A DNA stretch of 64,000 bases from Bacteroidota bacterium (GTDB lineage: Bacteria; Bacteroidota; Ignavibacteria; Ignavibacteriales; Ignavibacteriaceae): NCBI GenBank assembly GCA_021815405.1, contig JAKAGV010000011.1:1-64000 (forward strand), in the 5' to 3' direction. Made by a program: the position numbers and the translations under genes. Shown one piece after another: positions 3,554 to 41,151 of this stretch (position 1 is its first letter; every line of letters starts with the position of its first letter). The notes under the pieces are model-generated. The model was not told where the DNA came from, did not search any database, and worked only from the letters and a program-made list of their open reading frames with translations.

Positions 3554-4129
3554 ATGAGCATCCAGAATATTATTACTTATGTTTCAATTCTCGTTTGGTC
3601 CACAATTCCCTTTAGGCATACCGGCAATAAGTATTTCTATTTCTTTTATTTTACTGCCCTAATGGATCCGCTTACGCTTTATCTCCGGCTAGTTTTTCAT
3701 TCAAGTTCTAATTTTTTCTATATGCCGCTGCAATATCTTACATTAATTGCCTTGTTCAATAAGCAGATAATTATAAAAAATAAAGTTCCAATAATAATAT
3801 TACTTGTCATAATAGGTTTAATAAATATAAAAATTGATTTATTACGCGATTTACTTTTAAATAGTCTCATTATTTTTTCTATTCTTCTTAAATTATTTGT
3901 CGAATTATTTACTTCAACGTTTAAACAAAAATTGCTAAATCTATTTTTAATAACTCTAATTTTGAATATGGTATTGATGATTTTTCAATTCTTAGGAGTA
4001 TATACTGGTTACCTTAATGGCTATTTTTATTTTTACATTGCTATTATTTTAGAAATTTTTATAGGATTATTCTTCTGGATATTTAAAGAGGATAATCCCA
4101 AATTGTTAATCAAACTTAATAATAGATAG
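3554..4129 (+). CDS. tandem-array seven-span membrane protein, copy 1
   Basis: I do not recognise the family. The 191-residue protein has about seven hydrophobic segments and no signal peptide or catalytic motif. The features shared with its neighbours are W-x2-IPFR near residue 16, KYFYFFYF, LTLYLRLVFHSSSNFFY near residues 44-60, and a C-terminal block GYFYFY...EIFIGLFFW followed by DNPKLLIKL. The conserved polar residues lie at span ends, as in small sensor or channel proteins. It is 8 bp from copy 2, so the array is probably one transcript. A role as a sensory partner of the nearby kinase is an inference. Confidence 0.75.
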   Translation: MSIQNIITYVSILVWSTIPFRHTGNKYFYFFYFTALMDPLTLYLRLVFHSSSNFFYMPLQYLTLIALFNKQIIIKNKVPIIILLVIIGLINIKIDLLRDLLLNSLIIFSILLKLFVELFTSTFKQKLLNLFLITLILNMVLMIFQFLGVYTGYLNGYFYFYIAIILEIFIGLFFWIFKEDNPKLLIKLNNR

Positions 4130-4136
4130 ATCTAAT

Positions 4137-4715
4137 ATGCCTTTCAAGCCGGAATTTCTTATACTTTATTTTGACACTATTGTTTGGGCTGTTATACCAT
4201 TTAGACAATACCGTAAAAAATATTTTTATTATTTCTACTTCAACAACATTGGGGATTACCTAACATTATATATGAGGCTTCTTTTCCATTCCAGTTCCAA
4301 TTTTTTTTATATACCTGGAAGTATTTTGATGCTTATATTTATTCAGGATGAAAAGTCTCTTAAGAAATATCAAATATTTTATCTAATTAGCTTCATCGTT
4401 TTTAGCATACTTTATTTTAAATTAAATCTGGAAGGATATGTTATAACATACGGTTTAATTCATATACTGATATTGATAACCTTGTGCAGGGATTTCATAA
4501 AAGCTTTTTTCAGAGCGGGGACAATTATGACTTTCGTTGCAGCAATTATCTTAAATGAAGCTGTGGATACTTTTAAAATATTCGGGATTATATCCGGCAC
4601 TTCTAACGGTTACTTTTATTTCTATGCCTCGGTTGCTTTCGAAATTCTAATCGGCTTCTTCTTCTGGATTAAAGCAGATAATCCGAAACTTTTAATTAAA
4701 TTAAGTCGAAATTAA
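4137..4715 (+). CDS. tandem-array seven-span membrane protein, copy 2
   Basis: This is a 192-residue paralogue of the preceding gene, with the same W-x2-IPFRQ, KKYFYYFYF, LTLYMRLLFHSSSNFFY and C-terminal FFWI-x-ADNPKLLIKL blocks. About seven membrane segments are expected. Copies 2 and 3 are the most alike of the array, including GDYLTLYMR and the G-x-SNGYFYFY motif before the last span. The middle spans vary freely between copies, so the ends of the protein are what is conserved. Family and function are not known to me. Confidence 0.75.
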   Translation: MPFKPEFLILYFDTIVWAVIPFRQYRKKYFYYFYFNNIGDYLTLYMRLLFHSSSNFFYIPGSILMLIFIQDEKSLKKYQIFYLISFIVFSILYFKLNLEGYVITYGLIHILILITLCRDFIKAFFRAGTIMTFVAAIILNEAVDTFKIFGIISGTSNGYFYFYASVAFEILIGFFFWIKADNPKLLIKLSRN

Positions 4716-4733
4716 ATCCAAAATAATATAACC

Positions 4734-5306
4734 ATGTTTTCTAACCCATTATTCATTTTAATTTACTTTGACATAATTATCTGGACTGTGATCCCTTTTA
4801 GGCAATTGGGTAAAAAATACTTCTATTATTTTTATTTTAACACTTTGGGCGATTATCTAACATTATACATGAGGTTTCTTTTCCATTCTAGTACAAATTT
4901 TTTCTATATCCCATGTAATACTCTTATGTTGTTGGCTATTCTGGATGCATCTTATATTAAAAAATATAAATTAATTTACATAGCAGTCCTTTTTACTATG
5001 AGTGCAACTTTCTTTTTAATAAATGTCGATAATAACTTTATTTTAAATGCTTTAATTCATTTTTTAATCTTGATTACTTTATCAAAAGACTTTATAAAGA
5101 TTTACTTTAAGGAGAGAAAAATCTCTTTATTTGTTGCAGTAATTATTTTAGATGAATCCATAAATATTTTAAGATATCTCGGTGTTATATCCGGCGCATC
5201 TAATGGCTATTTTTATTTCTATGTCTCTACAGCTTTCGAAATTTTAGTGGGCTTTTTCTTCTGGATTAAGGAAGATAATCCGAAGCTTTTAATTCAATTA
5301 AAATAG
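4734..5306 (+). CDS. tandem-array seven-span membrane protein, copy 3
   Basis: This is the 190-residue third intact member of the array and is closest to copy 2. It keeps W-x2-IPFRQLGKKYFYYFYF, LTLYMRFLFHSSTNFFY, and the C-terminal FEILVGFFFWI with EDNPKLLIQLK. About seven hydrophobic segments are visible and there are no enzymatic motifs. It is the last gene of the array before a convergent terminator at 5321-5349. The high conservation of aromatic residues (Y, F, W) at segment ends would suit a ligand pocket or a packing interface, but this is speculation. Confidence 0.75.
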   Translation: MFSNPLFILIYFDIIIWTVIPFRQLGKKYFYYFYFNTLGDYLTLYMRFLFHSSTNFFYIPCNTLMLLAILDASYIKKYKLIYIAVLFTMSATFFLINVDNNFILNALIHFLILITLSKDFIKIYFKERKISLFVAVIILDESINILRYLGVISGASNGYFYFYVSTAFEILVGFFFWIKEDNPKLLIQLK

Positions 5307-6986: not shown

Positions 6987-7445
6987 ATGAAAAAAAATTT
7001 ACTACCAATTGTTGCAGCATTAATATTTCTTTCGGGTTTGTCCTTTGCCCAGACACAAACGACAACCGGTGTAATTGGTAAATTATATACTAAAACCCAG
7101 GCAGATCAAATTTATGGTCCTGTTCTGCAATCGGTTTCGATAAGCACATCCACTTTACAGTCTCTTCTTGCAAAATCACCAAAATATATTATGTTTAATA
7201 TAATAAATGGGCAATTGGTAATATCTACTCCTCAAAGAAGTGTTTTATCTGGACAAATGACTGCATTGAGTACAAGCCAACCAATGAGATTATATAGCAC
7301 AAGTATTATCAATCAGTTAATTCAGCAAGGAGGGGCTAGTACCACGACAATAGAGATTAGAGCTAATAATATAGTTACCCTGACAAATGGAACAGATACT
7401 CTTGAATCAGGAACTCCATGCCCGCCAAATTGTCCTACAAATTAA
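6987..7445 (+). CDS. secreted protein of unknown function
   Basis: The 152-residue product has a standard signal peptide (about residues 1-21, ending LSFAQ) and a threonine- and serine-rich mature part. No domain is recognised. Near the C-terminus is TPCPPNCP with two cysteines. It begins the rightward run secreted protein - membrane protein copy 4 - histidine kinase - response regulator, and ends 5 bp before the next ATG, so it is very likely part of that operon. A periplasmic or surface accessory role to the sensor unit would fit this context but is inference. Confidence 0.7.
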   Translation: MKKNLLPIVAALIFLSGLSFAQTQTTTGVIGKLYTKTQADQIYGPVLQSVSISTSTLQSLLAKSPKYIMFNIINGQLVISTPQRSVLSGQMTALSTSQPMRLYSTSIINQLIQQGGASTTTIEIRANNIVTLTNGTDTLESGTPCPPNCPTN

Positions 7446-7450
7446 TTGTT

Positions 7451-8023
7451 ATGAATATTTTTCAATTTATCCTTTTTTTATCAATTATAATTTGGCTTAT
7501 TATACCCTTTAGACAAATTGGGAAAAAGTATTTTTATTATTTTTTAAGTTTTGCTTTACTTGATCCCTTAACAGAATTTTTAAGAATAGCCTTTAAGTCT
7601 TCATCAAATTACTTTTTTGTACCCATTACTTGTTTAGCTCTTATTTCTATACTTAATATAAGCATTATCAAAAAGTATAGATATCAAATCATTGTTTTAT
7701 TTGTTTTAGTTTGCATATTTAATTTTACTAAAATAATGTCTGAAAATACTTTTATTATCCTGTGTATTATTCATTTGTTGATTTTCCTTAAGCTATTAAA
7801 GGTTTTTTCAATTAATTTTGTAAGAAATAAATTATTCGATATTTTTCTAACGATATTAATATTTTATGAAATTACAGTCATTTTAAAATTTTTAAATCTT
7901 TTGACTGGATTTACAAATGCTGATATTTATTTCTATATTACCACAACTTTCGAAATCCTTTTCGGACTCTTTTTCTGCATATTTAGGTCAGATGACAGTA
8001 GACTCGTTCTTCAGCTTAAGTAA
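7451..8023 (+). CDS. seven-span membrane protein, copy 4, overlapping the histidine kinase
   Basis: This is a 190-residue member of the family seen at 3554-5306. It keeps W-x2-IPFRQIGKKYFYYF, LT-x2-LRIAFKSSSNYFF near residues 38-55 and the C-terminal FEILFGLFFCIF. The last block is divergent (SDDSRLVLQLK instead of DNPKLLIKL). The ATG at 7451 is preferred to one 33 bp upstream because it lies just after the stop of the previous gene. Its 3' end overlaps the kinase start by 32 bp, which implies translational coupling and balanced amounts of the two proteins. It is a candidate sensory partner of the kinase. Confidence 0.78.
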   Translation: MNIFQFILFLSIIIWLIIPFRQIGKKYFYYFLSFALLDPLTEFLRIAFKSSSNYFFVPITCLALISILNISIIKKYRYQIIVLFVLVCIFNFTKIMSENTFIILCIIHLLIFLKLLKVFSINFVRNKLFDIFLTILIFYEITVILKFLNLLTGFTNADIYFYITTTFEILFGLFFCIFRSDDSRLVLQLK

Positions 8024-23689: not shown

Positions 23690-26257
23690 ATGGCAAAGAC
23701 AATAAAGAACATTAAGCAGAAGAAAGCAGAAGAGACACCGCTCTCAAAATTTAAATTGGAAGATATTCTTCCGCAAAAATATCATTTGCTGGCAGTAATA
23801 CTCGTAATCGTAATTCTCTTCATGGCATTTCTAAATCCGCTATACTTCGGCGGAAAGACTTTTGAATCCGGAGATATAATTTCCAGCAAAGCCATGACGC
23901 CTTATATACTTAACCATAAAGATGGATTTACGCTCTGGAATCCACTTATCTTTTGCGGTATGCCTGCATACGCTATCGGAATAGGTACTGTTTGGTTTAA
24001 TGTTATTGCCGATATTTATAATCAGGTACGCACCTTGTATGCAAGTCTGTTTTCTGTCGAATACGTAACATGGACATTTTTCTTAATACTTCTCGGAATA
24101 AATTCATTCCTGCTTATGAAGTACTTAACTAAAAACACTCTTGTAAGTTTGTTTACTGCACTTGCTACATCGTTCAGTACCGGAATAATTGTTTTCCTTT
24201 ATATCGGGCATGTTACAAAGCTGACTTCGCTGTGTATGTTTCCGCTTGTATTCCTTTTGCTCTTCAGGATGAGAGAAAAAATAAAGTTGATAGACTTTTT
24301 GCTTTTGATAATAATAATTCAATTAATGCTACAGGGTTTTCATGCTCAAATTATTTTTTATACATTCTTCTCTGTTGCGATTTATTTTATATACTTCTTT
24401 TTAAGAGGACTTATTAAGAAAGAAAAAAACAATCAATTAAATCTTTTAAAGACCGCAGGCTTATTTGCTGTAGCAGCGATTATTGCCTTATTAATTCAAG
24501 CAGATAACATAACACAGATTTATCAATATACTCCGTACTCAACTAGAGGCGGACAGAGTATTGTTGAAAAAAGTTCAAGTGTTGAAAATCCGTCTTCATC
24601 AGAATATTATGATTATCATACAATGTGGTCATTTTCTCCGGGTGAAGTTTTAACTTTTATTGTTCCTTCTTATTATGGATTCGGAGGATCAACCTATCAA
24701 GGCTCTCTTTCAAATGATCAGCCCATAGATGTAAATACTTACTTCGGGCAGATGCCTTTTGTAGATGTTGCAATGTATATGGGTGTAATAGTTTTCTTCC
24801 TTGGATTGTTTGCGCTATTAACGCGGTGGCGTGAACCGCTGGTTCAATTCTTCGGAATATTGGCATTCGTTTCATTGTTAATTTCGTTCGGCAAAACTTT
24901 TCCCGTTTTATTTAATTTGCTTTTCTATCATCTTCCATACTTTAATAAATTCCGCGTACCCTCTATGATTTTAGTTCTTGTGCAGCTAAGTTTTCCGATA
25001 CTTGCAGGTTTTGGTCTGATGAAAATAATCTCATTAAAGCAATTCAGAGATTTAAGAACAATTAAAATTATAAAAAATACTGCTTTCGTATTCGGTGGCT
25101 TATTTATTATTTCTATGCTTCTTAAAGGATCGGTTTCAGATTGGTTTGTTGGAAGAGTAAGTGATTATACTGCCGGTATTCAACAATCGCAGCCTCAAAT
25201 GGCGCAGCAGTTCACGGCATTATCTTCGTATATGGCTGATATGTTTACCGGAGATTTGCTGATTGCTCTTGCACTTCTAGCATTAACATTTTGGCTCGCA
25301 TATTCTTATATCAATTCTAAAATTAGCCGGGATATTTTTGTTACGGCAGTTATTGCACTTACAATTTTTGATCTTTTTAGAATTGATTCACGTGATGAAA
25401 AATATGTTGATAATCCGGACATTAAAAATATGTTCAATCCTCCGGATTATGTTACCGCAATTAAAAATCAACATGATAAAGAACCCTTTAGGATGCTGAA
25501 CATAAAGCAAGATCGTTCACTCGGCTCACTAAACAACAATTCAAACTTTAATGCTTACTTTATGCTGGAAGATTTTTACGGATATTCTGCTATTAAGCCG
25601 AGGGGCTATCAGGATTTAATGGATGTTATCGGTCCCGTAAATGAAACGCTCTGGCGTATGTTAAATGTAAAATATATAGTTTCTGATCAGCAGATTCCTT
25701 ATCCGGGATTTCAATCAATTTATCAGCAGGGTAAAGAGTATGTTTACAAAAATAACGATGCACTTCAAAGAGCATATTTTGTTGATAGTGTTAAATCAGA
25801 GCCGGGCTTAGAAGTTCTTAATGAAATTAAAACTAATTCCTTTGATCCTAAAAATGTTGCCTTTGTTGATATTAAAATTCCAAAGGTAAATAAACCTGAT
25901 TCTGCCGATTATGCAAACATTACAGAATATAAAGATGAAACTGTTGCATTAAATGTTAAAGCCACAGGAAATAATTTTCTATTCTTCGGAGATACTTATC
26001 TTCCAACAGGTTGGAAGGCTTATATCGATGGGAACAAAACGGAAATTTATAAAACTAACCATGACTTTATGGGAATCGTTGTTCCGAACGGAACTCACAA
26101 AGTAGAATTTGTGTATGCACCGACATCATTTTACATAAGCAAATACATGGCTTTAATTTTAAGTTCACTTGTGGTTCTTGGTGTAATTATTATTAGTCTT
26201 TTTGAAATTAAAAAATCAAAGAAGTTGAAAGCAGCATTAGAAAGTCAGGAAAAATAG
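23690..26257 (+). CDS. YfhO-family membrane protein
   Basis: This 855-residue protein has a long hydrophobic region with a dozen or more spans (about residues 30-560) followed by a soluble domain of about 230 residues and a final span. The C-terminal beta-rich block with DTYLPTGWKAYIDG and FMGIVVPNGTHKVEFVYAP is typical of YfhO proteins. The family is related in fold to GT-C glycosyltransferases and is linked to lipoteichoic acid glycosylation in Gram-positives. The role here is presumably sugar transfer outside the membrane. It ends 2 bp before the next ATG. Confidence 0.9.
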   Translation: MAKTIKNIKQKKAEETPLSKFKLEDILPQKYHLLAVILVIVILFMAFLNPLYFGGKTFESGDIISSKAMTPYILNHKDGFTLWNPLIFCGMPAYAIGIGTVWFNVIADIYNQVRTLYASLFSVEYVTWTFFLILLGINSFLLMKYLTKNTLVSLFTALATSFSTGIIVFLYIGHVTKLTSLCMFPLVFLLLFRMREKIKLIDFLLLIIIIQLMLQGFHAQIIFYTFFSVAIYFIYFFLRGLIKKEKNNQLNLLKTAGLFAVAAIIALLIQADNITQIYQYTPYSTRGGQSIVEKSSSVENPSSSEYYDYHTMWSFSPGEVLTFIVPSYYGFGGSTYQGSLSNDQPIDVNTYFGQMPFVDVAMYMGVIVFFLGLFALLTRWREPLVQFFGILAFVSLLISFGKTFPVLFNLLFYHLPYFNKFRVPSMILVLVQLSFPILAGFGLMKIISLKQFRDLRTIKIIKNTAFVFGGLFIISMLLKGSVSDWFVGRVSDYTAGIQQSQPQMAQQFTALSSYMADMFTGDLLIALALLALTFWLAYSYINSKISRDIFVTAVIALTIFDLFRIDSRDEKYVDNPDIKNMFNPPDYVTAIKNQHDKEPFRMLNIKQDRSLGSLNNNSNFNAYFMLEDFYGYSAIKPRGYQDLMDVIGPVNETLWRMLNVKYIVSDQQIPYPGFQSIYQQGKEYVYKNNDALQRAYFVDSVKSEPGLEVLNEIKTNSFDPKNVAFVDIKIPKVNKPDSADYANITEYKDETVALNVKATGNNFLFFGDTYLPTGWKAYIDGNKTEIYKTNHDFMGIVVPNGTHKVEFVYAPTSFYISKYMALILSSLVVLGVIIISLFEIKKSKKLKAALESQEK

Positions 26258-26259
26258 TT

Positions 26260-27216
26260 ATGAAAAATTTTGGTATTACAGGAGTTGCCGGTTACATAGC
26301 ACCGAGGCATCTCCAAGCTATTAAAGAGACTGGGAATAGATTAATTGCGGCTATGGATCCTCATGATTCAGTTGGAATATTGGACAGATATTTTCCCCAC
26401 GCAGCCTTCTTTACTGAGTTTGAAAGATTTGACAGACATCTTGAAAGATTAAGAAGAACATCATCTGAAGAAAAGATTGATTACCTTACTATCTGCTCTC
26501 CGAATCATCTTCATGATGCCCATATAAGATTAGCTTTAAGACTTAATGCCAATGCAATTTGCGAAAAGCCGCTTGTATTAAATCCTTGGAATCTTGATGC
26601 ACTCCATGAACTTGAGAAAGATTCAGAAGGCAAGGTTTATACTATTCTTCAACTTAGAGTTCATCCGTCTCTGATTGAGCTTAAGAACAAGTTAGATCTT
26701 GAAAAGCAAAAGAAGCATGACGTAGTGTTAACTTATATAACGTCGCGCGGTCCGTGGTATAAATTTTCATGGAAAGGTGATCATCATAAGAGCGGAGGAA
26801 TTGCAACCAACATAGGAATCCATTTCTTTGATTTATTGATGTGGTACTTTGGAACAACTCAAAGAGTTGAGGTACATTATTCTTCCGATGATAAAATGTC
26901 GGGCTTTATTGAATTGGAAAAAGCTAATGTAAGATGGTTTCTTTCTATTGATAGAAATGATTTGCCGGATGATGTTGTGAAAAACGGCAAGACAACTTTT
27001 CGTTCAATCCGGGTTGATGATAAAGAAGTCGAGTTTACCGAAGGCTTCACTGATCTTCATACAAAAGTGTACAGCGAAACATTGGAAGGAAGAGGATTTG
27101 GAATAGAAACTGCGCGTCCTTCGGTTGAGCTTGTTCAAAAAATTAGAAATGAAAAGATTACTCTTAAACCGACTGTAATTCATCCGTTTGCTGAAAAGAT
27201 TTTAGGAATCAAATAA
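26260..27216 (+). CDS. WlbA/WbpB-like sugar oxidoreductase
   Basis: This 318-residue Gfo/Idh/MocA enzyme matches the WlbA/WbpB group that oxidises C3 of UDP-N-acetylglucosaminuronate. It has the GVAGYIAPRHLQAI Rossmann start, the LTICSPNHLHD strand, the catalytic CEKPLVLNPWNLD loop and GGIATNIGIHFFDLL. It is followed directly by a WlbB/WbpD-like acetyltransferase, the usual partner. The aminotransferase that normally acts between the two (WlbC/WbpE) is not in the window. Confidence 0.9.
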   Translation: MKNFGITGVAGYIAPRHLQAIKETGNRLIAAMDPHDSVGILDRYFPHAAFFTEFERFDRHLERLRRTSSEEKIDYLTICSPNHLHDAHIRLALRLNANAICEKPLVLNPWNLDALHELEKDSEGKVYTILQLRVHPSLIELKNKLDLEKQKKHDVVLTYITSRGPWYKFSWKGDHHKSGGIATNIGIHFFDLLMWYFGTTQRVEVHYSSDDKMSGFIELEKANVRWFLSIDRNDLPDDVVKNGKTTFRSIRVDDKEVEFTEGFTDLHTKVYSETLEGRGFGIETARPSVELVQKIRNEKITLKPTVIHPFAEKILGIK

Positions 27217-27293: not shown

Positions 27294-27884
27294 ATGTCTG
27301 AAGAAAAAAATTACTTTGTGCACGAATCATCTTACATAGATGAGCCGTGTGAAGTTGGAGAAGGAACAAAGATCTGGCATTTCTGCCATATTCAAAAGAA
27401 TGCAAAGATTGGGAAGAACTGCGTATTTGGACAAAACATTAATGTTGCAAACAACGTTACTATTGGAAACTTCTGTAAGATACAAAATAATGTTTCGATA
27501 TATGAAGGTGTAACTCTGGAAGATTATGTTTTCTGCGGACCTTCAATGGTATTTACAAACATTCTTGATCCAAAATGTAAGTATCCGCAGGTGGGTGCGC
27601 AATACTATAAAAATACTTTAGTAAAAGAAGGTGCCTCGATTGGTGCCAATGCAACTATAGTTTGCGGACATACAATCGGCAGGCATGCAATGATTGGTGC
27701 CGGTGCAGTAGTTACCAAAGATGTTCCGGATTATGCTTTAGTTGTCGGCAATCCCGGAAGAGTCGTCGGCTGGGTAAGTGAAGCAGGGAAAAAGCTAAAG
27801 TTTGATGAAAACGGAATGGCATACTGCGAAAAGTCGAAGAAGAAATATTTATTTAAGGATGGAACAGTTAGGGAAATTAATTAA
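27294..27884 (+). CDS. WlbB/WbpD-like UDP-sugar N-acetyltransferase
   Basis: This left-handed beta-helix enzyme acetylates the 3-amino group of UDP-2-acetamido-3-amino-2,3-dideoxy-glucuronate. Hexapeptide repeats run from about residue 15 to 165, with the family motifs [21 protein letters not shown] and [13 protein letters not shown]. The ATG at 27294 has an AAGGGA ribosome binding site and is preferred to a TTG 51 bp upstream. The length from there is 196 residues. It forms a pair with the preceding oxidoreductase. Confidence 0.9.
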
Positions 27885-28051: not shown

Positions 28052-28477
28052 CTACTTTTCAATAACCTTTGCTGATAATTCGCCACTTCAGACAATCCTC
28101 ATAAAAGTACGGGGAAGAAATACCCAAATTTTATTTAGAAAAAAGTTTAGAAACTTTAAGATTGGATTATTGCTTTTGATAGTTTCAAAATCATGACCGT
28201 CTCTATTCAAATAGAAAAGTCCGTAAAATAATTTCAAGAATGGTTTCTTCCTATAATTTTTTTTGAAGTAGATGGTAGTTCCTCTTCTAGTAACTGTCCT
28301 TTTGTGCGCGATTGAAGGAAGAAAAAATTCAGTCAGCGGACCCGGCGTTTCAATGTAGCCGCTCTTAGCAACTCTTTTTAATTCGGAACAAAATATTACC
28401 GGGTCGTCTATATGTTCGCCAATGTGGGATGCAATTACAAAATCAAACTGATTGTCTTTGAAAGGCATTGATAGCAT
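28052..28477 (-). pseudogene. broken copy of a SAM methyltransferase gene
   Basis: The translated frame, beginning MLSMPFKDNQFDFVIAS, matches the gene at 31419-32027 closely, including HIGEHIDDPV and SGYIETPGPLTEFFLPS. It lacks the entire 5' third with the SAM-binding motif I; homology stops at about 28475, and an in-frame TAA lies two codons upstream. Near the 3' end a TGG codon of the other copy is replaced by TGA (28088-28090). Beyond this the frame still aligns (SGELSAKVIEK against KDELIAETIEQ) to a shared stop. It is a decayed duplicate. Confidence 0.8.
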
Positions 28478-28591
28478 TGTCCGTTAGTGTTGCATACATG
28501 AAGAATTAAATTGCTTAATGCTTATTTGACAATATATTAATAAATATGTAATTTTTATAAAACATATTGATAATATAATATGTGAGGATAG

Positions 28592-30433
28592 ATGAATAGT
28601 ATAACGATTTACGATTCAGTTTCTTATTCTGAAGCTCAATCTTTAGTCAGCGGGAATAATTTGACACCTAATGCTCTTTATTATATAACAAATAAAAATG
28701 TCCTCCTAACTGCTGTTAATTTTAATCAATTTTCTTCAAAAGGAATTTATTTATATTCTTCAGGAAAAAAAGCATGGGGTGGTTTTTTATTAGGTGGAAC
28801 CAGCGGAAATGTCTCTGCTATAACAATAGGCAGTGATAGCTTATTAACATCTACGCAGACATACGCTTCTACAAGTGAAAGCGCAAGGGTGAACCCTGGA
28901 TGGACAACAGCACCTTCAGTAAACACTTCACTTCAAAACCTAGCAACGAATAATGTTAATAATATCAATGCTAATTCTGCAATTAATTCGAAATATAAAG
29001 CTTATGCGATTGGAAAATATGTAATAATAAGAGCGCAAACTTCTGGTACTACATTAAATGGTAGTACTATTAATGTAACATCATCCATGACTATAACATC
29101 TGTTACTTCGATGCAAGGAGGTACTTCAGATTTAGCAACACCGATTTTATATGAATGTTCATATGATTTTACAAATGATAAGCTATTAGAATTATTTGAG
29201 CCAACTTATAACAATAGAGTAACATTTGATAATCAAGCTATAAATCTTGCTGATATGTTTGAGTTTAATTGGAATAATTCTTCAGTTAGGGATACTATCT
29301 TAGTAAATTGTACGATTCAACATCAGTTTATTCTGTCTGGGACAATGATTGGGAATGAATTTTATTCTAGTGATTTTCTATCAAACTTAATTACTAATGG
29401 AGGAAATATTTCTCATAATGTTGGGAGGTCTGCTCAATTTGCTGGTAATGCAGTTATTAGTGGCGCTTCTGGTATTTCAGGGAATATTCTTGTAGGTATG
29501 ATCGATGCCTATTATAAGGGAACAGCGCAATCAGATATTTCCTATAATATTTGCTCTGGTAGTAGCGGTGGTGGTATAGAACAAAACAGATTATTTGCTG
29601 GAGGTTCAATAAGATATTGTAATGAAACATCTGGAGCTTATGGAATACGGGATAATGAAGTTGGCTTTATGACATGCCTTTGGAATGTATCGGGATGGAA
29701 AGCATGTAAGTCAAACCAATTAAGGGCTCGATTTCAATTAATAAATTTAGTAGATACAGGTTTTTCTATCTTTGCTCAAAATGAATGCATGGATGATAGA
29801 GTTTTAAATTACATAAATTTTAGTGGCAATTGTTATTTTATTGACAATAAATGTCATAATCTTGGTACAATGCCATACTCTCCGTCAACACCCGTTGTGC
29901 AAACATGGGTAAATGTTTCGGTAATGTTTTGTGCTTTTTTAAGTGATTACCTTGATCAAAATACATTGACAAACGTTAATATATTTAGATTTTATGGGGG
30001 ATCAATTAGTCAGTTAACTCTCTCTGGAAATTCTAGTTCTCCAATATGGATAACAGAAAGCGGCACCAATCTGGGAAGATTTTCTATTGATGTTACAATT
30101 ATCTTTGACGGAACAAATATTGGCGTAAATGGACAAAGTTATACTATCGCTACAATTTTCCAACCCAACAGTATTATTGATATTGGATTCATATATGGAA
30201 ATGGTTTAACTGGTGCGGGTGCAAATATTTCTTTGGGAATTTCCACAGACTCACCGACAGGTATATTGGCAGCTACGTCAATTACTAGCATAAATAATAC
30301 AAAAGTAAATATTTCTCCTTCCCCTCTTCCTATTTCAACGGTTTTGTTTAGAAGCATAATTATCAATATTACAGGTGCAACTATTACTGCTGGTACATTA
30401 ACAGTACATGTTGAGGGTTTTAGAAGAAATTAA
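28592..30433 (+). CDS. phage tail-fibre-like beta-helix protein
   Basis: The 613-residue product has no signal peptide or membrane span. The N-terminal part (about residues 1-60), with LTPNALYYITNKNVLLTAV, resembles a domain I associate with tail or virion proteins of Bacteroidota phages. The middle (about residues 210-460) is rich in short N-x-I/G-N repeats as in pectate-lyase-like beta-helices. The end is a small beta-sandwich-like domain closing in LTVHVEGFRRN. No other phage gene is near. Assignment as virion-like is by pattern, not by a firm family match. It is flanked by damaged copies of one methyltransferase gene. Confidence 0.6.
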   Translation: MNSITIYDSVSYSEAQSLVSGNNLTPNALYYITNKNVLLTAVNFNQFSSKGIYLYSSGKKAWGGFLLGGTSGNVSAITIGSDSLLTSTQTYASTSESARVNPGWTTAPSVNTSLQNLATNNVNNINANSAINSKYKAYAIGKYVIIRAQTSGTTLNGSTINVTSSMTITSVTSMQGGTSDLATPILYECSYDFTNDKLLELFEPTYNNRVTFDNQAINLADMFEFNWNNSSVRDTILVNCTIQHQFILSGTMIGNEFYSSDFLSNLITNGGNISHNVGRSAQFAGNAVISGASGISGNILVGMIDAYYKGTAQSDISYNICSGSSGGGIEQNRLFAGGSIRYCNETSGAYGIRDNEVGFMTCLWNVSGWKACKSNQLRARFQLINLVDTGFSIFAQNECMDDRVLNYINFSGNCYFIDNKCHNLGTMPYSPSTPVVQTWVNVSVMFCAFLSDYLDQNTLTNVNIFRFYGGSISQLTLSGNSSSPIWITESGTNLGRFSIDVTIIFDGTNIGVNGQSYTIATIFQPNSIIDIGFIYGNGLTGAGANISLGISTDSPTGILAATSITSINNTKVNISPSPLPISTVLFRSIIINITGATITAGTLTVHVEGFRRN

Positions 30434-30536
30434 AACATTATTCAAATCTAATTAAATTATACAAGCTAAAGTGAATAAACTATTAATTAAATGACGAATA
30501 GTAAAATAAGATTCACAATATTATGTTTAAAAATAT

Positions 30537-31352
30537 ATGTTATTAAACGAAAACTATACTAATCAAGAAAATCATATTATAGGCCTTTCGATAAAAGAAA
30601 GAAGCCACAGGTTAGCACACATTAAGGACAAAAACAGTGATATCTATAAAATTACAGTTGAGCCGTTAAAATTTTTGGATGTTTTTCTTAAAAAAGAAGA
30701 AAACAATTGGTTAACCATTGGTGATTATAACGGAGTTGAAGCGAACTATCTGCTTCAGCGTAATCAAAAGGCGACAGCTTCAGATATTTCGGATGCTCTT
30801 CTTAAAGAAGCTTACAAGGATAATTTAATTACCGACTACAGCAAGCAAAATGCAGAGCATTTGTCTTTCGATGACGATACGTTTGATTATGTAATGTGCA
30901 AGGAAACATATCATCATTTCCCAAGACCCTATATGGCGATGTATGAAATGATACGTGTCTGTAAAAAAGCCATAATTGTTATTGGGGAACCGATCGATAT
31001 TTTATCTAAAATGGCTTTACTTGTTTTTATTAAGAATATTTTAGATAAAATTGATCCTGTATTAATCAATTCTTTGTGGAAGAATAGATTTTCTTTCGAA
31101 GAAGTTGGAAATTATGTTTATAAGGTTTCCGAAAGAGAAATAGAAAAACTTGCCGTTGGAATGGGATTACCGCTTGTAGGATTCAAAAGTCATAATATAA
31201 ATACGGGGCAGTTGTATAATTTATTATCCAAACTAAGAATGATACCTAAAAGTGCGCTTACTTTTGTAATTTTTAAAAGAAAACCTTCTCCTCAATTGGT
31301 ACGTGAAATGCGACGAGACAATTTTAAAATATTAGACTTACCAGGGAAATAA
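30537..31352 (+). CDS. SAM methyltransferase with atypical motif I
   Basis: This 271-residue protein has a methyltransferase type 11 layout: WLTIGDYNGVEANYLLQ in the place of motif I, TASDISDALLKEA for the ribose-binding acid, and DDDTFDYVMCKETYHHFPRP. The motif I glycines are reduced (GDYNG rather than GxGxG), so cofactor binding is likely but not certain. It lies in the insert between the two related methyltransferase copies and follows the tail-fibre-like gene. Confidence 0.75.
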   Translation: MLLNENYTNQENHIIGLSIKERSHRLAHIKDKNSDIYKITVEPLKFLDVFLKKEENNWLTIGDYNGVEANYLLQRNQKATASDISDALLKEAYKDNLITDYSKQNAEHLSFDDDTFDYVMCKETYHHFPRPYMAMYEMIRVCKKAIIVIGEPIDILSKMALLVFIKNILDKIDPVLINSLWKNRFSFEEVGNYVYKVSEREIEKLAVGMGLPLVGFKSHNINTGQLYNLLSKLRMIPKSALTFVIFKRKPSPQLVREMRRDNFKILDLPGK

Positions 31353-31418
31353 AGAATGTTAAATATTTTGATTAGCAAAGACCTTTTTCTAGATTACTTG
31401 TGGCGATATATTCTCATC

Positions 31419-32027
31419 CTATTGTTCGATAGTCTCAGCAATTAATTCATCTTTCCAAACAATTCTAATGTAAGTCCGGGGGAGGAGCACCCAAATTTTA
31501 ATTAGAATGAAATTTATAAATTTTAAAATCGGGTTATTACTTTTTATAGTTTTGAAATTATAGCCGTCGCGGTTCAAATAAAAAATTGAATAAAATAATT
31601 TTGAGAACGGCTCCTTTCGATTATTCTTCTTGAAGAGAATTGTACTGCCCTTTCTTGTTACCGTCCACTTGTGAGCTAACGATGGAAGAAAGAATTCTGT
31701 CAGCGGACCAGGCGTTTCAATGTAGCCGCTCTTTGCAACTCTTCTTAACTCTGAACAAAATACTACCGGATCATCTATGTGCTCGCCAATGTGGGATGCA
31801 ATTACAAAATCAAATTGCTTATCCTCGAAGGGCATTGATAATGCATCGCCTATAATTAATTGCTTGTCCTCCGGAGTTTCAACTTTGTCAACTGTTCGAT
31901 GAATAGTTTCTCCCATATATTTTTCTAAAATCACATTGGCTCTACGGTTTGGCTGATGTCCACTGCCGACATCCAGAACAATCCATTCCGGATCAATATT
32001 TACGATGTAATTTGTATTGCCCGCTCT
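31419..32027 (-). CDS. SAM methyltransferase gene with no visible start codon
   Basis: The reading frame codes for a class I methyltransferase with motif I VLDVGSGHQPNRRANVI, then FDFVIASHIGEHIDDPV and SGYIETPGPLTEFF. It runs in the same frame as the upstream glycosyltransferase, separated from it only by that gene's TAG at 32028-32030. Between the TAG and motif I there is no ATG, GTG or TTG. The first usable codon is a GTG at 31934, which would delete motif I. Either the 5' end was lost in a rearrangement, or translation relies on readthrough or a rare ATT/ATC start. It is probably a degenerate gene. Confidence 0.65.
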   Translation of the reverse strand, partial: RAGNTNYIVNIDPEWIVLDVGSGHQPNRRANVILEKYMGETIHRTVDKVETPEDKQLIIGDALSMPFEDKQFDFVIASHIGEHIDDPVVFCSELRRVAKSGYIETPGPLTEFFLPSLAHKWTVTRKGSTILFKKNNRKEPFSKLFYSIFYLNRDGYNFKTIKSNNPILKFINFILIKIWVLLPRTYIRIVWKDELIAETIEQ

Positions 32028-33233
32028 CTATATTCTTAAAGCATTTTTGTAAACTTTATAAGTATCTTGACAAATCACTTCCGGACTGAAATTCTTTTTG
32101 CCGTATTCTTGAAGGACAGCAGGATCATAGTTTTGTGAATTATCCATCATGTAGAGAATTGCATCTATAAGTTGCTGAAGATTCCTTCTCTCAATTAAAA
32201 TTCCAACTTCCTTTGGTACAAAATCTTCCGGTCCGCCGCATTTAGTAGCGATTACCGGAATTCCATATAAAATAGATTCAGCAGTTACTACGGAGAATCC
32301 TTCTTCATCACTGTTTAAAATGTGAAAATCTGAATTGGTAAGAATTTCCAATTTCTGTTTCTCATCAACAAATCCATGGAAGAAAATGTTTTTATTCAAC
32401 AGACCGAATTCTCCGGCTAAAGATTCCAGTTGAGCTTTTTGTTCACCCTCACCAATTAGATGGAACTCAACATTTTTTCTGCTCAACTTATTGCATATAT
32501 TATCAAATGCACGGATAATGTCTGTAACATTTTTCCTTTCATTTAAAATTGAAATATGAACCGCTCTTTTAATATTATCCTTTTTTATTCTGTCTTTCTT
32601 AACTAAGAACTCCGGCTTAATTTCCACAACATTTTTTATAACGCCGAATTTCCCTTTGAAGCCTACCTTTTTATAATATTCTAAAGATGTAAAAGAATCG
32701 ACATTCATGAATTCGCTGTTTTTAATAACAAGACTTTTTAGAAATCTTAAAGGAATTTTCGTCTTATTAGTTATTCCTCTTAGATAATTTATATCCGGCG
32801 TGGAATGTTCGGTGATTACGTATCTGATCTTTTTAAAATACTTAAACAGCAAAGCAATGTATCCAGATCTATCAATAACATTAACATGAATTAAGTCAGG
32901 TTTTCCCCAAACCTGTTTAATCTTTTTCCAGCCGAGATAATGAGCAATTATAAAGCTGAAGTTGTAGAAAATCTTTTTGATAATACCGCTGCCGATATAT
33001 TTAAAATACACTCTGGTAATAAGCAGTCCGTCTTCATTTCGGTAGTCTACTTCAAATTTCTTATCCTTCATGGAAGCATCGGCGGTTACGTAAAGTACTG
33101 CAACATTACATTTGGCTGAAACAGCTAAGGCTTTTCTCTTTACAAAAATGCCGAGTACTTTGCTCGTTCTGTTTGGAAACCAGCTTGCAAAAAATAGAAT
33201 TTTAAATCGCAGAGGTTTAATAGTATCAATCAT
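32028..33233 (-). CDS. family 4 glycosyltransferase
   Basis: This 401-residue GT-B enzyme shows FFASWFPNRTSKVLGIFVKR at the start, typical of GT4 enzymes. In the donor domain it has HLIGEGEQKAQLESL, FFHGFVDEKQKLEIL and DEEGFSVVTAESILYGIPVI with GGPEDFV. It is predicted to be cytoplasmic and to build the surface polysaccharide. It reads leftward, opposite to most of the locus, and its TAG stop abuts the in-frame methyltransferase described above. Confidence 0.9.
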   Translation of the reverse strand: MIDTIKPLRFKILFFASWFPNRTSKVLGIFVKRKALAVSAKCNVAVLYVTADASMKDKKFEVDYRNEDGLLITRVYFKYIGSGIIKKIFYNFSFIIAHYLGWKKIKQVWGKPDLIHVNVIDRSGYIALLFKYFKKIRYVITEHSTPDINYLRGITNKTKIPLRFLKSLVIKNSEFMNVDSFTSLEYYKKVGFKGKFGVIKNVVEIKPEFLVKKDRIKKDNIKRAVHISILNERKNVTDIIRAFDNICNKLSRKNVEFHLIGEGEQKAQLESLAGEFGLLNKNIFFHGFVDEKQKLEILTNSDFHILNSDEEGFSVVTAESILYGIPVIATKCGGPEDFVPKEVGILIERRNLQQLIDAILYMMDNSQNYDPAVLQEYGKKNFSPEVICQDTYKVYKNALRI

Positions 33234-33525: not shown

Positions 33526-34488
33526 ATGAAAAGAGCATTAATAATTGGAATATCCGGTCAGGATGGTACTTACTTAACGAAGTTTCTCCTATCTAAAGGT
33601 TATGAAGTACACGGAACTTCGAGGGACGCCGACCTGTCTAATTTTTCCGGGCTCAAAAAGTTGAATATTTATGACAAAGTTTCGCTCCATTCCATGTCGC
33701 TGATAGATTTCAGAAGTGTTATGCAGACAATTCTGCAGGTCGAACCGACAGAGATCTATAATTTGTCTGGTCAAACTTCTGTCGGTTTATCCTTTCTTCA
33801 GCCGGTTGAAACCTTGGAAAGTATAAGTATCGGTACTCTAAATATTCTTGAAGTTATTCGCTTTCATAAATTACAGACAAAGTTTTACAATGCATGTTCA
33901 AGTGAATGCTTTGGTGATACCGATGGAAAACCCGCTAATGAAGAGACTCCTTTCAGACCTAGAAGCCCGTATGCCGTTGCAAAGGCTGCTGCATTTTGGC
34001 AGTTGTCGAATTATAGAGAAGCCTATAATTTGTTTGCGTGCTCGGGTATTCTTTTTAATCACGAATCTCCTTTAAGACCTAAAAGATTTGTTACAAAAAA
34101 AATTATTGAAACCGCCTGCAGAATTTCAAAAGGTTCAAATGAAAAGCTTAAGCTAGGTAATATATCGATTAAAAGGGACTGGGGGTGGGCTCCGGAATAT
34201 GTTGAAGCCATGTTCAAGATCCTTCAAAATTCAAAGCCGGATGATTTTGTAATTGCTACCGGGAAAAGCATTACTCTGGAAGAATTCATCCAAAAAACTT
34301 TTGAATATTTTAATTTGAATTATAAAGATTATCTTGAGTACGATAATAGTTTAATAAGACCGACTGACTTATCTAACAGCCTTGGGGACCCTTCCAAAGC
34401 AAAAAAGATTTTGAATTGGCATCCGAAATATTTTGTGGATGATGTTGTTAGGATGATGATTGAAGATGAATTATCTAAAAATAATTGA
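33526..34488 (+). CDS. gmd: GDP-mannose 4,6-dehydratase
   Basis: This extended short-chain dehydrogenase converts GDP-mannose to GDP-4-keto-6-deoxymannose, the precursor of fucose, rhamnose and related sugars. It has the NAD(P) motif GISGQDGTYL, NLSGQTSVGLSF, ACSSECFGD and the catalytic Y-x3-K in SPYAVAKAAA. SGILFNHESPLRP is a strong GMD signature. The 320 residues are at the short end for the family. No reductase to finish a 6-deoxyhexose is in the window. Confidence 0.92.
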   Translation: MKRALIIGISGQDGTYLTKFLLSKGYEVHGTSRDADLSNFSGLKKLNIYDKVSLHSMSLIDFRSVMQTILQVEPTEIYNLSGQTSVGLSFLQPVETLESISIGTLNILEVIRFHKLQTKFYNACSSECFGDTDGKPANEETPFRPRSPYAVAKAAAFWQLSNYREAYNLFACSGILFNHESPLRPKRFVTKKIIETACRISKGSNEKLKLGNISIKRDWGWAPEYVEAMFKILQNSKPDDFVIATGKSITLEEFIQKTFEYFNLNYKDYLEYDNSLIRPTDLSNSLGDPSKAKKILNWHPKYFVDDVVRMMIEDELSKNN

Positions 34489-36082: not shown

Positions 36083-37312
36083 ATGGGCTATCGCTTTGTA
36101 AAAATAACCTCATATTATAGAGACTTTCTAAAACAATATTACAGCATGAATAGTACTATTGTAAATAAGAGTTATGCCGAGCAATTAAATCACTTAATGA
36201 ATCAGGCATATGCGTGGTCCAATTTTTATTCTATCCATCTTAATAAACTTGGTTATGATGCTCATGAGATAGTGTGTAATGCCGAACCACTTCAGAACAC
36301 ATGGGCTATAGAAAACGGCTCATCTTCTAAGGATTTAAAAATTGTTTTTGACCAGTTGAAAAGCTTGAAACCGGAGGTAGTATTTTTCCAGGACAGTTTC
36401 AAATTCAATGGTGCATGGATTACCGAACTAAAAGAGAAAATTTCTTCAATTAAATTGACGATCGGTTTTTGCTGTACAAGTTTTAACGAAATGTATCTTG
36501 AGCAATTCAAAGCATTCGATTTTGTCATCGTATGCTCTCCTAGGTTCGAAAAATCATTTAAAGAATTTGGTCTTAATGTCTATACTATTATGCATGCATT
36601 CGATGCTTCTATCATAGATAGAATAAATGTAAATAATAATTATCCCGAAACAGATTTTATTTTTCTCGGTTCATTTATACCAGGACCTGATATTCATGAT
36701 TTACGGCAGCAAGTTGTTGAACATCTCCTTAAATCAAATATTAATATGGAGCTATATTCACACATTTTGACAATTAAACCGGTTGATTTATTTTTCAGGC
36801 AAAGTGCTTATATTGCAGCAAATGCTTTAAAGAAAATGAGGCTTTCTTTTATTGCTGAAAATCTACCGGGCATTAAGAAGGCTTTCTTATTAGACCGGAT
36901 GCCGCAGAATCCGAAAAACATTTCGCTCATAAAAAAGAATTCCAAGCCTTCTATTTATGGTATGGAAATGTTCAAAGCATTATCGCGCTCAAAGATAGGC
37001 TTTAATTATCATGGAAATGTTGCCGGTGATTATGCCGCAAACATTCGTCTATTTGAAGTTACCGGAGTAGGTTCATGTTTAATTACGGATTGGAAGAAAA
37101 ACCTGAATGATATTTTTGAAATCGATAAAGAAGTTACAGCTTTCAATTCAGCAGATGAATGTATTGAGAAAGTTAAATGGCTGTTGAACCATGAACAGGA
37201 AAGGAAAGCCATTGCAGAAGCCGGACAAAAGCGTGTGTTAAAAGATCATACCTTTGAGATAAGAGCAAAGCAGCTTGACGAAATTATCCGAAAAGAATTA
37301 AATAAAAAATAA
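36083..37312 (+). CDS. CgeB-like glycosyltransferase
   Basis: The 409-residue product fits the glycosyl transferase group that includes CgeB. An N-terminal domain contains LKSLKPEVVFFQDS and FDFVIVCSPRFEKSF. The C-terminal donor domain contains SRSKIGFNYHG, the NIRLFEVTGVGSCLITDWK motif and a terminal helical segment rich in Lys and Glu. The NIRLFE-x-T-x-G-x-G pattern is the characteristic nucleotide-sugar end of this group. The sugar is unknown. It is followed closely by a methyltransferase. Confidence 0.85.
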   Translation: MGYRFVKITSYYRDFLKQYYSMNSTIVNKSYAEQLNHLMNQAYAWSNFYSIHLNKLGYDAHEIVCNAEPLQNTWAIENGSSSKDLKIVFDQLKSLKPEVVFFQDSFKFNGAWITELKEKISSIKLTIGFCCTSFNEMYLEQFKAFDFVIVCSPRFEKSFKEFGLNVYTIMHAFDASIIDRINVNNNYPETDFIFLGSFIPGPDIHDLRQQVVEHLLKSNINMELYSHILTIKPVDLFFRQSAYIAANALKKMRLSFIAENLPGIKKAFLLDRMPQNPKNISLIKKNSKPSIYGMEMFKALSRSKIGFNYHGNVAGDYAANIRLFEVTGVGSCLITDWKKNLNDIFEIDKEVTAFNSADECIEKVKWLLNHEQERKAIAEAGQKRVLKDHTFEIRAKQLDEIIRKELNKK

Positions 37313-39621: not shown

Positions 39622-40881
39622 TTACAAATGTTCATCCATAATTTTACTTAGCTCTCCTGCAATCCTTTCTCTATCAAAAACTTTCACTTTGGATAAGTCT
39701 GTTTTATATTGACTGCTGCATTCAAATATTTTCCCGCCGTCTTCATCGTATCTAAACATCATTCCCGCATTTGTATCTTCTAAGATCTGCTTAACTTCGT
39801 TATTATCATTTCCAAACGCGATTATCGGTTTACCGGTTCTAAGATATTCAAATAATTTGCCTGGTACATGCCTTGGCTCTGTAGAACAAACAAGTAAGTA
39901 AGATGCGTTTATTAATTCTTTAAGCATCTTTCTATAAGGAAGTAGACCAACATACTCAGCGTAATTAGTTAGCCCTGCATCATCTATTGATTGCTTAATT
40001 CCCGGACTTACGGTTCCGATAAATTTTAATTTAAGCTTTCTGTTGTTATCAATTTCTTTTTTTACTCTTGCCCAGAAAGCCGGAATGTCCTGGAAGTCAA
40101 AAATATTCCCGGCATGGACGATTATTTCTTCATCCCTGTTTGGTCGGATTTCAAGGTTTTCAAAATCATCTTCATTATATCCCCAATATAAAACAAAAGA
40201 TTTATCCTTTGCGAATGGATATTTCCTAATGTAATTATTCTTCATTGTATCTGTAACAAAAACAGAAGCCGAGGATTTATTGATAACCTTTTTTTCAAGA
40301 TGATTATCAATTACTAATGTAATTTGGCTTCGCTTAAAGTTTTTGTAATAGACAATATCAACCCACGGATCTATAAAAACGGGATAAAAAGGTTTTCTAA
40401 ATTTTTTTGATAAGGATAATCCGATGAGATGAACCGAATGTGGTGGACCGATTGATACTATCGCATCGATCTTTTCTTCACGTAAAATTTTCTTCCCGGA
40501 TTTTACTCCTGAAAAGTACCAGCCGATACGAGCATCCGGTATAAATAAATTCATTCGTATCCAGATTGAAATTTTGTGAGTTATACTTTTGTTTGTTGTC
40601 GAAATAGTTTCTGAAGCAACTAACTGATCGTCTTTTTTCTTACCTATAAATTTTTTATAAAAGTTGAAAGGCTCGAACGTTTTACTTTTATAAACTTTTA
40701 AATCCGGTCTAACTTCTTTTAATAAACTTTCGTCCTTTGCAGAAAAGGTATCTTCGTCTACAGTCAGCACAACTGGCTGCCAGTCGTATTCCGGCAAGTA
40801 TTTGATTATTTTCAATGGCCAGTGCAGTGATGCTTTACCAGAAGGCGGCCAAAAGTATGTTATGAATAGTACTTTCTTCAT
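39622..40881 (-). CDS. family 4-like glycosyltransferase
   Basis: This 419-residue enzyme begins VLFITYFWPPSGKASLHWPL, a start seen in a group of GT4-like transferases of polysaccharide loci. It has DAIVSIGPPHSVHLIGL in the N-terminal domain, and IVHAGNIFDFQDIPAF and HVPGKLFEYLRTGKPIIAF in the donor domain. It is probably cytoplasmic. It reads leftward, opposing the preceding glycosyltransferase, and marks the right end of the locus. Confidence 0.87.
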   Translation of the reverse strand: MKKVLFITYFWPPSGKASLHWPLKIIKYLPEYDWQPVVLTVDEDTFSAKDESLLKEVRPDLKVYKSKTFEPFNFYKKFIGKKKDDQLVASETISTTNKSITHKISIWIRMNLFIPDARIGWYFSGVKSGKKILREEKIDAIVSIGPPHSVHLIGLSLSKKFRKPFYPVFIDPWVDIVYYKNFKRSQITLVIDNHLEKKVINKSSASVFVTDTMKNNYIRKYPFAKDKSFVLYWGYNEDDFENLEIRPNRDEEIIVHAGNIFDFQDIPAFWARVKKEIDNNRKLKLKFIGTVSPGIKQSIDDAGLTNYAEYVGLLPYRKMLKELINASYLLVCSTEPRHVPGKLFEYLRTGKPIIAFGNDNNEVKQILEDTNAGMMFRYDEDGGKIFECSSQYKTDLSKVKVFDRERIAGELSKIMDEHL

Positions 40882-41102: not shown

Positions 41103-41151
41103 TCTTAGAGTTTTAATTTAATTGCAGTGGGCAGTATATAAAAATACACAG

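Follow-up and report, generated by a model that had tools for sequence, protein, structure and literature searches.

In capsule and O-antigen loci, the swapping of gene cassettes between conserved flanks is a known kind of event. Loci shaped in this way combine conserved flanks with a replaced middle, contain glycosyltransferases, methyltransferases, and a flippase, and carry remnant genes at the joins. The same features are found in the stretch of 64,000 nucleotides analysed here (the window), and a second member of the genus (G012; G and L numbers are our own handles) carries another block in the corresponding position. Two things set the window apart from a typical cassette-swapped locus: a phage-type gene is present, and the join falls within a fusion gene, of which a remnant is left. 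The arrangement is likely to be the scar left when recombination replaced a cassette in a surface-polysaccharide cluster, the host being an environmental bacterium of Ignavibacteriaceae type. Nothing on this locus was found in the literature, as judged from titles and the beginnings of abstracts.

Closer comparisons concern individual genes. The fusions of a GT4 glycosyltransferase with a methyltransferase that occur in the family agree with the window gene in domains, order, frame, and neighbours, the difference being that a TAG divides the two halves of the window gene. For the 613-residue orphan protein, the comparison is with an ORF of the uncultured phage LR756504.1, which sits among other long same-strand ORFs; in contrast, the window protein lacks about 400 N-terminal residues and stands alone, no other phage-type gene being recognised nearby. 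Table 1 lists the features of the locus. Elsewhere in the window, four similar membrane-protein-like ORFs of about 190-200 residues were observed, three in tandem (3554-5306) and one further on (7418-8023). A promoter scan gave a chance-level result (19 found versus 21.7 expected), and the terminator scan gave 0.

Table 1. Features of the variable block and its flanks, with positions in the window.
Feature	Position	Strand	Basis
Gfo/Idh/MocA oxidoreductase gene, conserved left flank	26260..27216	+	Pfam PF01408/PF02894
Hexapeptide-repeat acyltransferase gene, last conserved gene ahead of the variable block	27294..27884	+	Pfam Hexapep
Remnant of the glycosyltransferase-methyltransferase fusion (3' end, 142 codons), pseudogene	28052..28480	-	Homology; 6/50 invariant residues gone
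613-residue orphan ORF (613 codons)	28592..30433	+	Phage ORF relative by tblastn; atypical tetranucleotide use
Class I SAM-dependent methyltransferase gene, 271 residues (271 codons)	30537..31352	+	Pfam Methyltransf_11 E 2e-13
Fusion gene, methyltransferase half, 3' of the in-frame TAG	31419..32027	-	Keeps 50/50 C-part invariant residues
In-frame TAG splitting the fusion gene	32028..32030	-	Trp in 7/7 intact relatives
Fusion gene, GT4 glycosyltransferase half, frame intact	32031..33233	-	Pfam Glycos_transf_1 E 3e-27
Gene of the GDP-mannose 4,6-dehydratase family, conserved right flank	33526..34488	+	Pfam PF16363 E 5e-105

The initial annotation placed two homologous, same-strand copies of a methyltransferase gene on either side of an inserted segment, and their homology is borne out. 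The left copy (the remnant) and the right copy (the methyltransferase half) match at 73% identity over 300 nt without a gap; tblastn with the right copy recovers the left one at 79% (E 1e-73) across one TGA, and the two are 78.0% identical over 141 residues, a similarity far beyond chance. The TGA noted in the left copy opposite a tryptophan of the right copy was also confirmed, at 28088-28090, and tryptophan occupies this position in all seven intact relatives. These relatives (G011, G005, G010, G016, G441, G458, and G464; G453 was omitted, its methyltransferase half being frameshifted) define a set of invariant residues. Of the 50 in the C-terminal part, 6 are gone from the left copy, whereas all persist in the right copy. 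In the N-terminal part, 22 of 23 invariant positions are retained in the right copy, the sole exception being the TAG position, which gives 72 of 73 overall.

The nature of the gene itself proved different from that first proposed. When the right copy was searched against 31 genomes (its own and 30 relatives), the four strong outside matches all lay inside long open frames, of 606, 615, 607, and 597 codons (G011, G005, G010, and G016, respectively). In the window, the GT4 ORF and the adjacent methyltransferase ORF occupy one frame with the TAG alone between them, and in Pfam both window ORFs, as well as two intact relatives, show the succession of a GT4 domain and then a class I methyltransferase domain. 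The right copy is thus the C-terminal half of a glycosyltransferase-methyltransferase fusion of about 604 residues, and the next ORF supplies the other half. The start codon of the right copy, described earlier as lost, is thus not missing, because the copy is in the same frame as the upstream GT4 ORF and is split from it only by the TAG, its close relatives being internal domains of 597-615-codon frames. Since each of these relatives is a single fusion gene, what is missing from the left copy is about three quarters of the true gene and not its 5' third, and the description of both copies as a stand-alone methyltransferase gene does not hold. With the TAG interrupting the single frame that would hold both domains, the window gene is a broken member of its family.

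Fusion homologues were found in 9 of 80 family genomes, counting the window's own. The glycosyltransferase half is 77-81% identical to those of G011, G005, G010, and G453 and 78-81% identical to those of the first three of these, and among named records the best-matching fusions belong to metagenome-assembled genomes labelled Bacteroidetes and Ignavibacteriaceae. In G441, a TAA precedes the start codon, and the frame is intact. In G453, two single-base losses put the methyltransferase half out of frame (L086 9460-10013) beside an open glycosyltransferase half; the losses may be real or may be sequencing errors. The methyltransferase half is broken in two of the nine genomes (the window's and G453), whereas the glycosyltransferase half is open in all nine. 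The TAG could itself be an assembly error. With the TAG between the halves, the window's glycosyltransferase could still be made, the attached methyltransferase is probably no longer made, and methylation may have been lost with it.

The comparison of gene order, proposed earlier as a check on the ancestral arrangement, yielded a cargo-free order in relatives. In G011, the oxidoreductase gene is followed by the hexapeptide acyltransferase gene, the fusion gene on the opposite strand, the dehydratase gene, and the flippase gene; no cargo is present, and the end of the fusion gene lies 8 bp from the acyltransferase stop. The full stretch recurs in the same order, again cargo-free, in G453, and part of it, from the acyltransferase end onward, in G005. 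The dehydratase gene follows the fusion gene in G011, G005, G016, G453, G458, and G464, whereas the gene beyond the fusion 3' end differs in G010, G016, G441, G458, and G464; in G005, G010, and G441, the short contigs show near neighbours only. A second copy occurs in G000, the window's own genome, alone, and none of the eight other fusion-bearing genomes has a second copy or cargo adjoining the fusion, nor were intact orthologues of both copies with the same middle genes found among them. From the cargo-free order, it follows that the left copy is the truncated 3' end of a fusion gene at the ancestral place and that 28481-31418 is extra.

The oxidoreductase gene is 85-89% identical at the equivalent site in G011, G453, and G012, and in G012 (L104) the oxidoreductase and acyltransferase are 89% and 87% identical to those of the window. 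Past the acyltransferase gene of G012, the block consists of different sugar-modification genes, up to a homologue of the window's 36083-37312, which marks the end of the acyltransferase gene as a block-swap point in the genus. Conserved flanks with a differing middle block are thus seen when G011 and G453 are set against G012.

Two genes make up the cargo. The 613-residue ORF, called tail-fibre-like at the outset, is phage-type insofar as a search of 50,697 phage records gave one match, to LR756504.1 (636 kb; tblastn E 6e-8); the tail-fibre label has no counterpart in Pfam, PHROGs, or NCBIfam, none of which matched the protein to a family, and the phage ORF likewise has no function label in PHROGs or Pfam. 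The protein aligns end to end with the C-terminal 600 or so residues of the 1031-residue phage ORF at 24-28% identity, and in a shuffle control the similarity scored z 22 over the whole alignment and 8.3 over the last 73 residues. The phage protein occurs with an identical sequence in IMGVR_UViG_3300012582_000005. No relative of the 613-residue protein was found in 394 other genomes of the phylum, among GTDB genomes by peptide patterns, in plasmids, or in PDB sequences; a two-sequence profile run over 391 genomes of the class found the gene in its own genome and in none of the 390 others. In IMG/VR, its peptide patterns matched nothing, and the two-sequence alignment and the phage protein matched only the one phage contig. 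Two structure predictions were unusable (pLDDT 31.8 and 32.8). A tail-fibre or other virion role may be suggested for this protein on the basis of its phage relative.

The second cargo gene agrees with the earlier description of another methyltransferase between the copies. Matches at E 1e-12 or better were found in 5 of 394 other genomes of the phylum, the best, at 56-57% identity, in other families of the class; in the alignment, the window protein is without a loop of about 25 residues present in its relatives. One of the relatives at 56-57% adjoins a homologue of the window's 39622-40881 glycosyltransferase, a second adjoins a homologue of the membrane protein at 23690, and the neighbours of a third include no sugar genes of this window. 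The enzyme is of the sugar-cluster type. Within the genus, a clear relative (44%) exists in G002 only; it was observed (L045 3412-5398) to be cut short beside an ORF that we take to be transposase-like, near homologues of the 39622 glycosyltransferase and of the GroES-like gene at 41122. A compositional difference between 28500-31400 and its flanks, also proposed as a check, applies to one of the two genes: in a comparison of 1.5-kb windows of the 64 kb that leaves out the acyltransferase gene, the 613-residue gene is atypical (tetranucleotide z up to 2.9; GC3 19.5%), whereas the methyltransferase gene is ordinary (z 0.66 to -0.58 for windows starting at 30001 to 30501).

Under a cassette replacement, the ancestral order would have been oxidoreductase, acyltransferase, opposite-strand GT4-methyltransferase fusion, dehydratase, and flippase. 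Recombination with DNA of another lineage bearing a homologous fusion gene would then have joined the 3' end of one gene to incoming DNA, leaving the 142-codon remnant. The incoming segment, 28481-31418, would have carried the phage-type gene and the second methyltransferase gene, with a full-length fusion gene beyond it. Later, the remnant would have decayed and the full-length gene would have gained the TAG between its halves. Both the recombination route and which copy is the resident one are what we infer from these comparisons. A donor with the same cargo was not found among the 394 other phylum genomes or by GTDB peptide patterns, and the right-hand gene gave no position for a recombination breakpoint. 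Nor do the cargo borders share a direct or inverted repeat of 8 nt or more that would account for the join.

The age and kinship of the copies bear on the main competing account. Duplication or replacement had both been offered for the arrival of the cargo; the cargo-free order in relatives supports replacement, and recent tandem duplication was rejected because synonymous sites between the copies are saturated. Their pS of 0.714 lies inside the range (0.606-0.840) spanned by the 14 remaining pairs drawn from six sequences (the left and right copies, G453, G011, G005, and G010, compared from the FCSEL motif on), so the copies split about as long ago as the compared species did; together with a pN of 0.123, the saturation indicates that both copies were constrained for most of their separation. 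An old tandem duplication in the lineage, followed by loss of the first three quarters of the left copy and by arrival of the cargo, either as a later insertion or in place of what had been lost, accommodates the 78.0% identity of the copies, and their sister grouping is compatible with the trees (AU p 0.22 for DNA and 0.156 for protein), none of the four placements being rejected. It is nevertheless unlikely, as the 80 family genomes searched hold no second copy in any of the eight other fusion-bearing members, and in the best protein tree the left copy groups with G453 (support 87/72); its identity across the shared part is 85.5% to G453 and 76.8% to the right copy. The DNA tree is without that grouping. 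The trees and AU tests used the 115 columns that begin at the FCSEL motif, and for G453 the last in-frame piece was taken. On these sequences, two diverged orthologues joined by recombination would give the best fit.

Had a phage-derived element, or a mobile element of another kind, inserted here with the tail-fibre-like gene and the methyltransferase as cargo, this would explain why the only relative of the 613-residue protein lies in a 636-kb uncultured phage and why its gene is atypical in composition. Such an event appears highly improbable, as the ORFs of the insert include no integrase or transposase, no Rfam family matches anywhere in the window, and two diverged copies of one gene end would be left unaccounted for. 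A prophage or transposon insertion was rejected on the first of these grounds and because the borders of the cargo share no 8-mer; no direct or inverted repeats of at least 8 nt were found between them, and a repeat scan found no tandem repeats. A different objection, which concerns the right-hand gene only and is compatible with cassette replacement, holds that the TAG is not damage, the fusion being produced by low-level readthrough or the methyltransferase half being translated separately from a rare start codon. The otherwise undecayed state of that half, with the TAG as its one departure from the invariant positions, is in keeping with this, but a recent nonsense mutation yields the identical picture, and between the TAG and the first GTG there is no ATG, GTG, or TTG, while that GTG would remove what is presumably the SAM-binding motif; this objection is considered improbable.

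Under cassette replacement, the new methyltransferase may alter the structure of the sugar. It is conceivable, though a very long shot, that the swapped-in pair forms an anti-phage unit, in which a domesticated phage protein of receptor-binding type, retained singly and undamaged within the sugar cluster, would mask or decoy the surface sugar, and the new methyltransferase would replace the lost methylation and alter the receptor. As a replacement, the locus would provide a readable scar of change in a sugar cluster of a little-studied family, with the join inside a glycosyltransferase-methyltransferase fusion, and it documents a lone phage-type gene in a sugar cluster.
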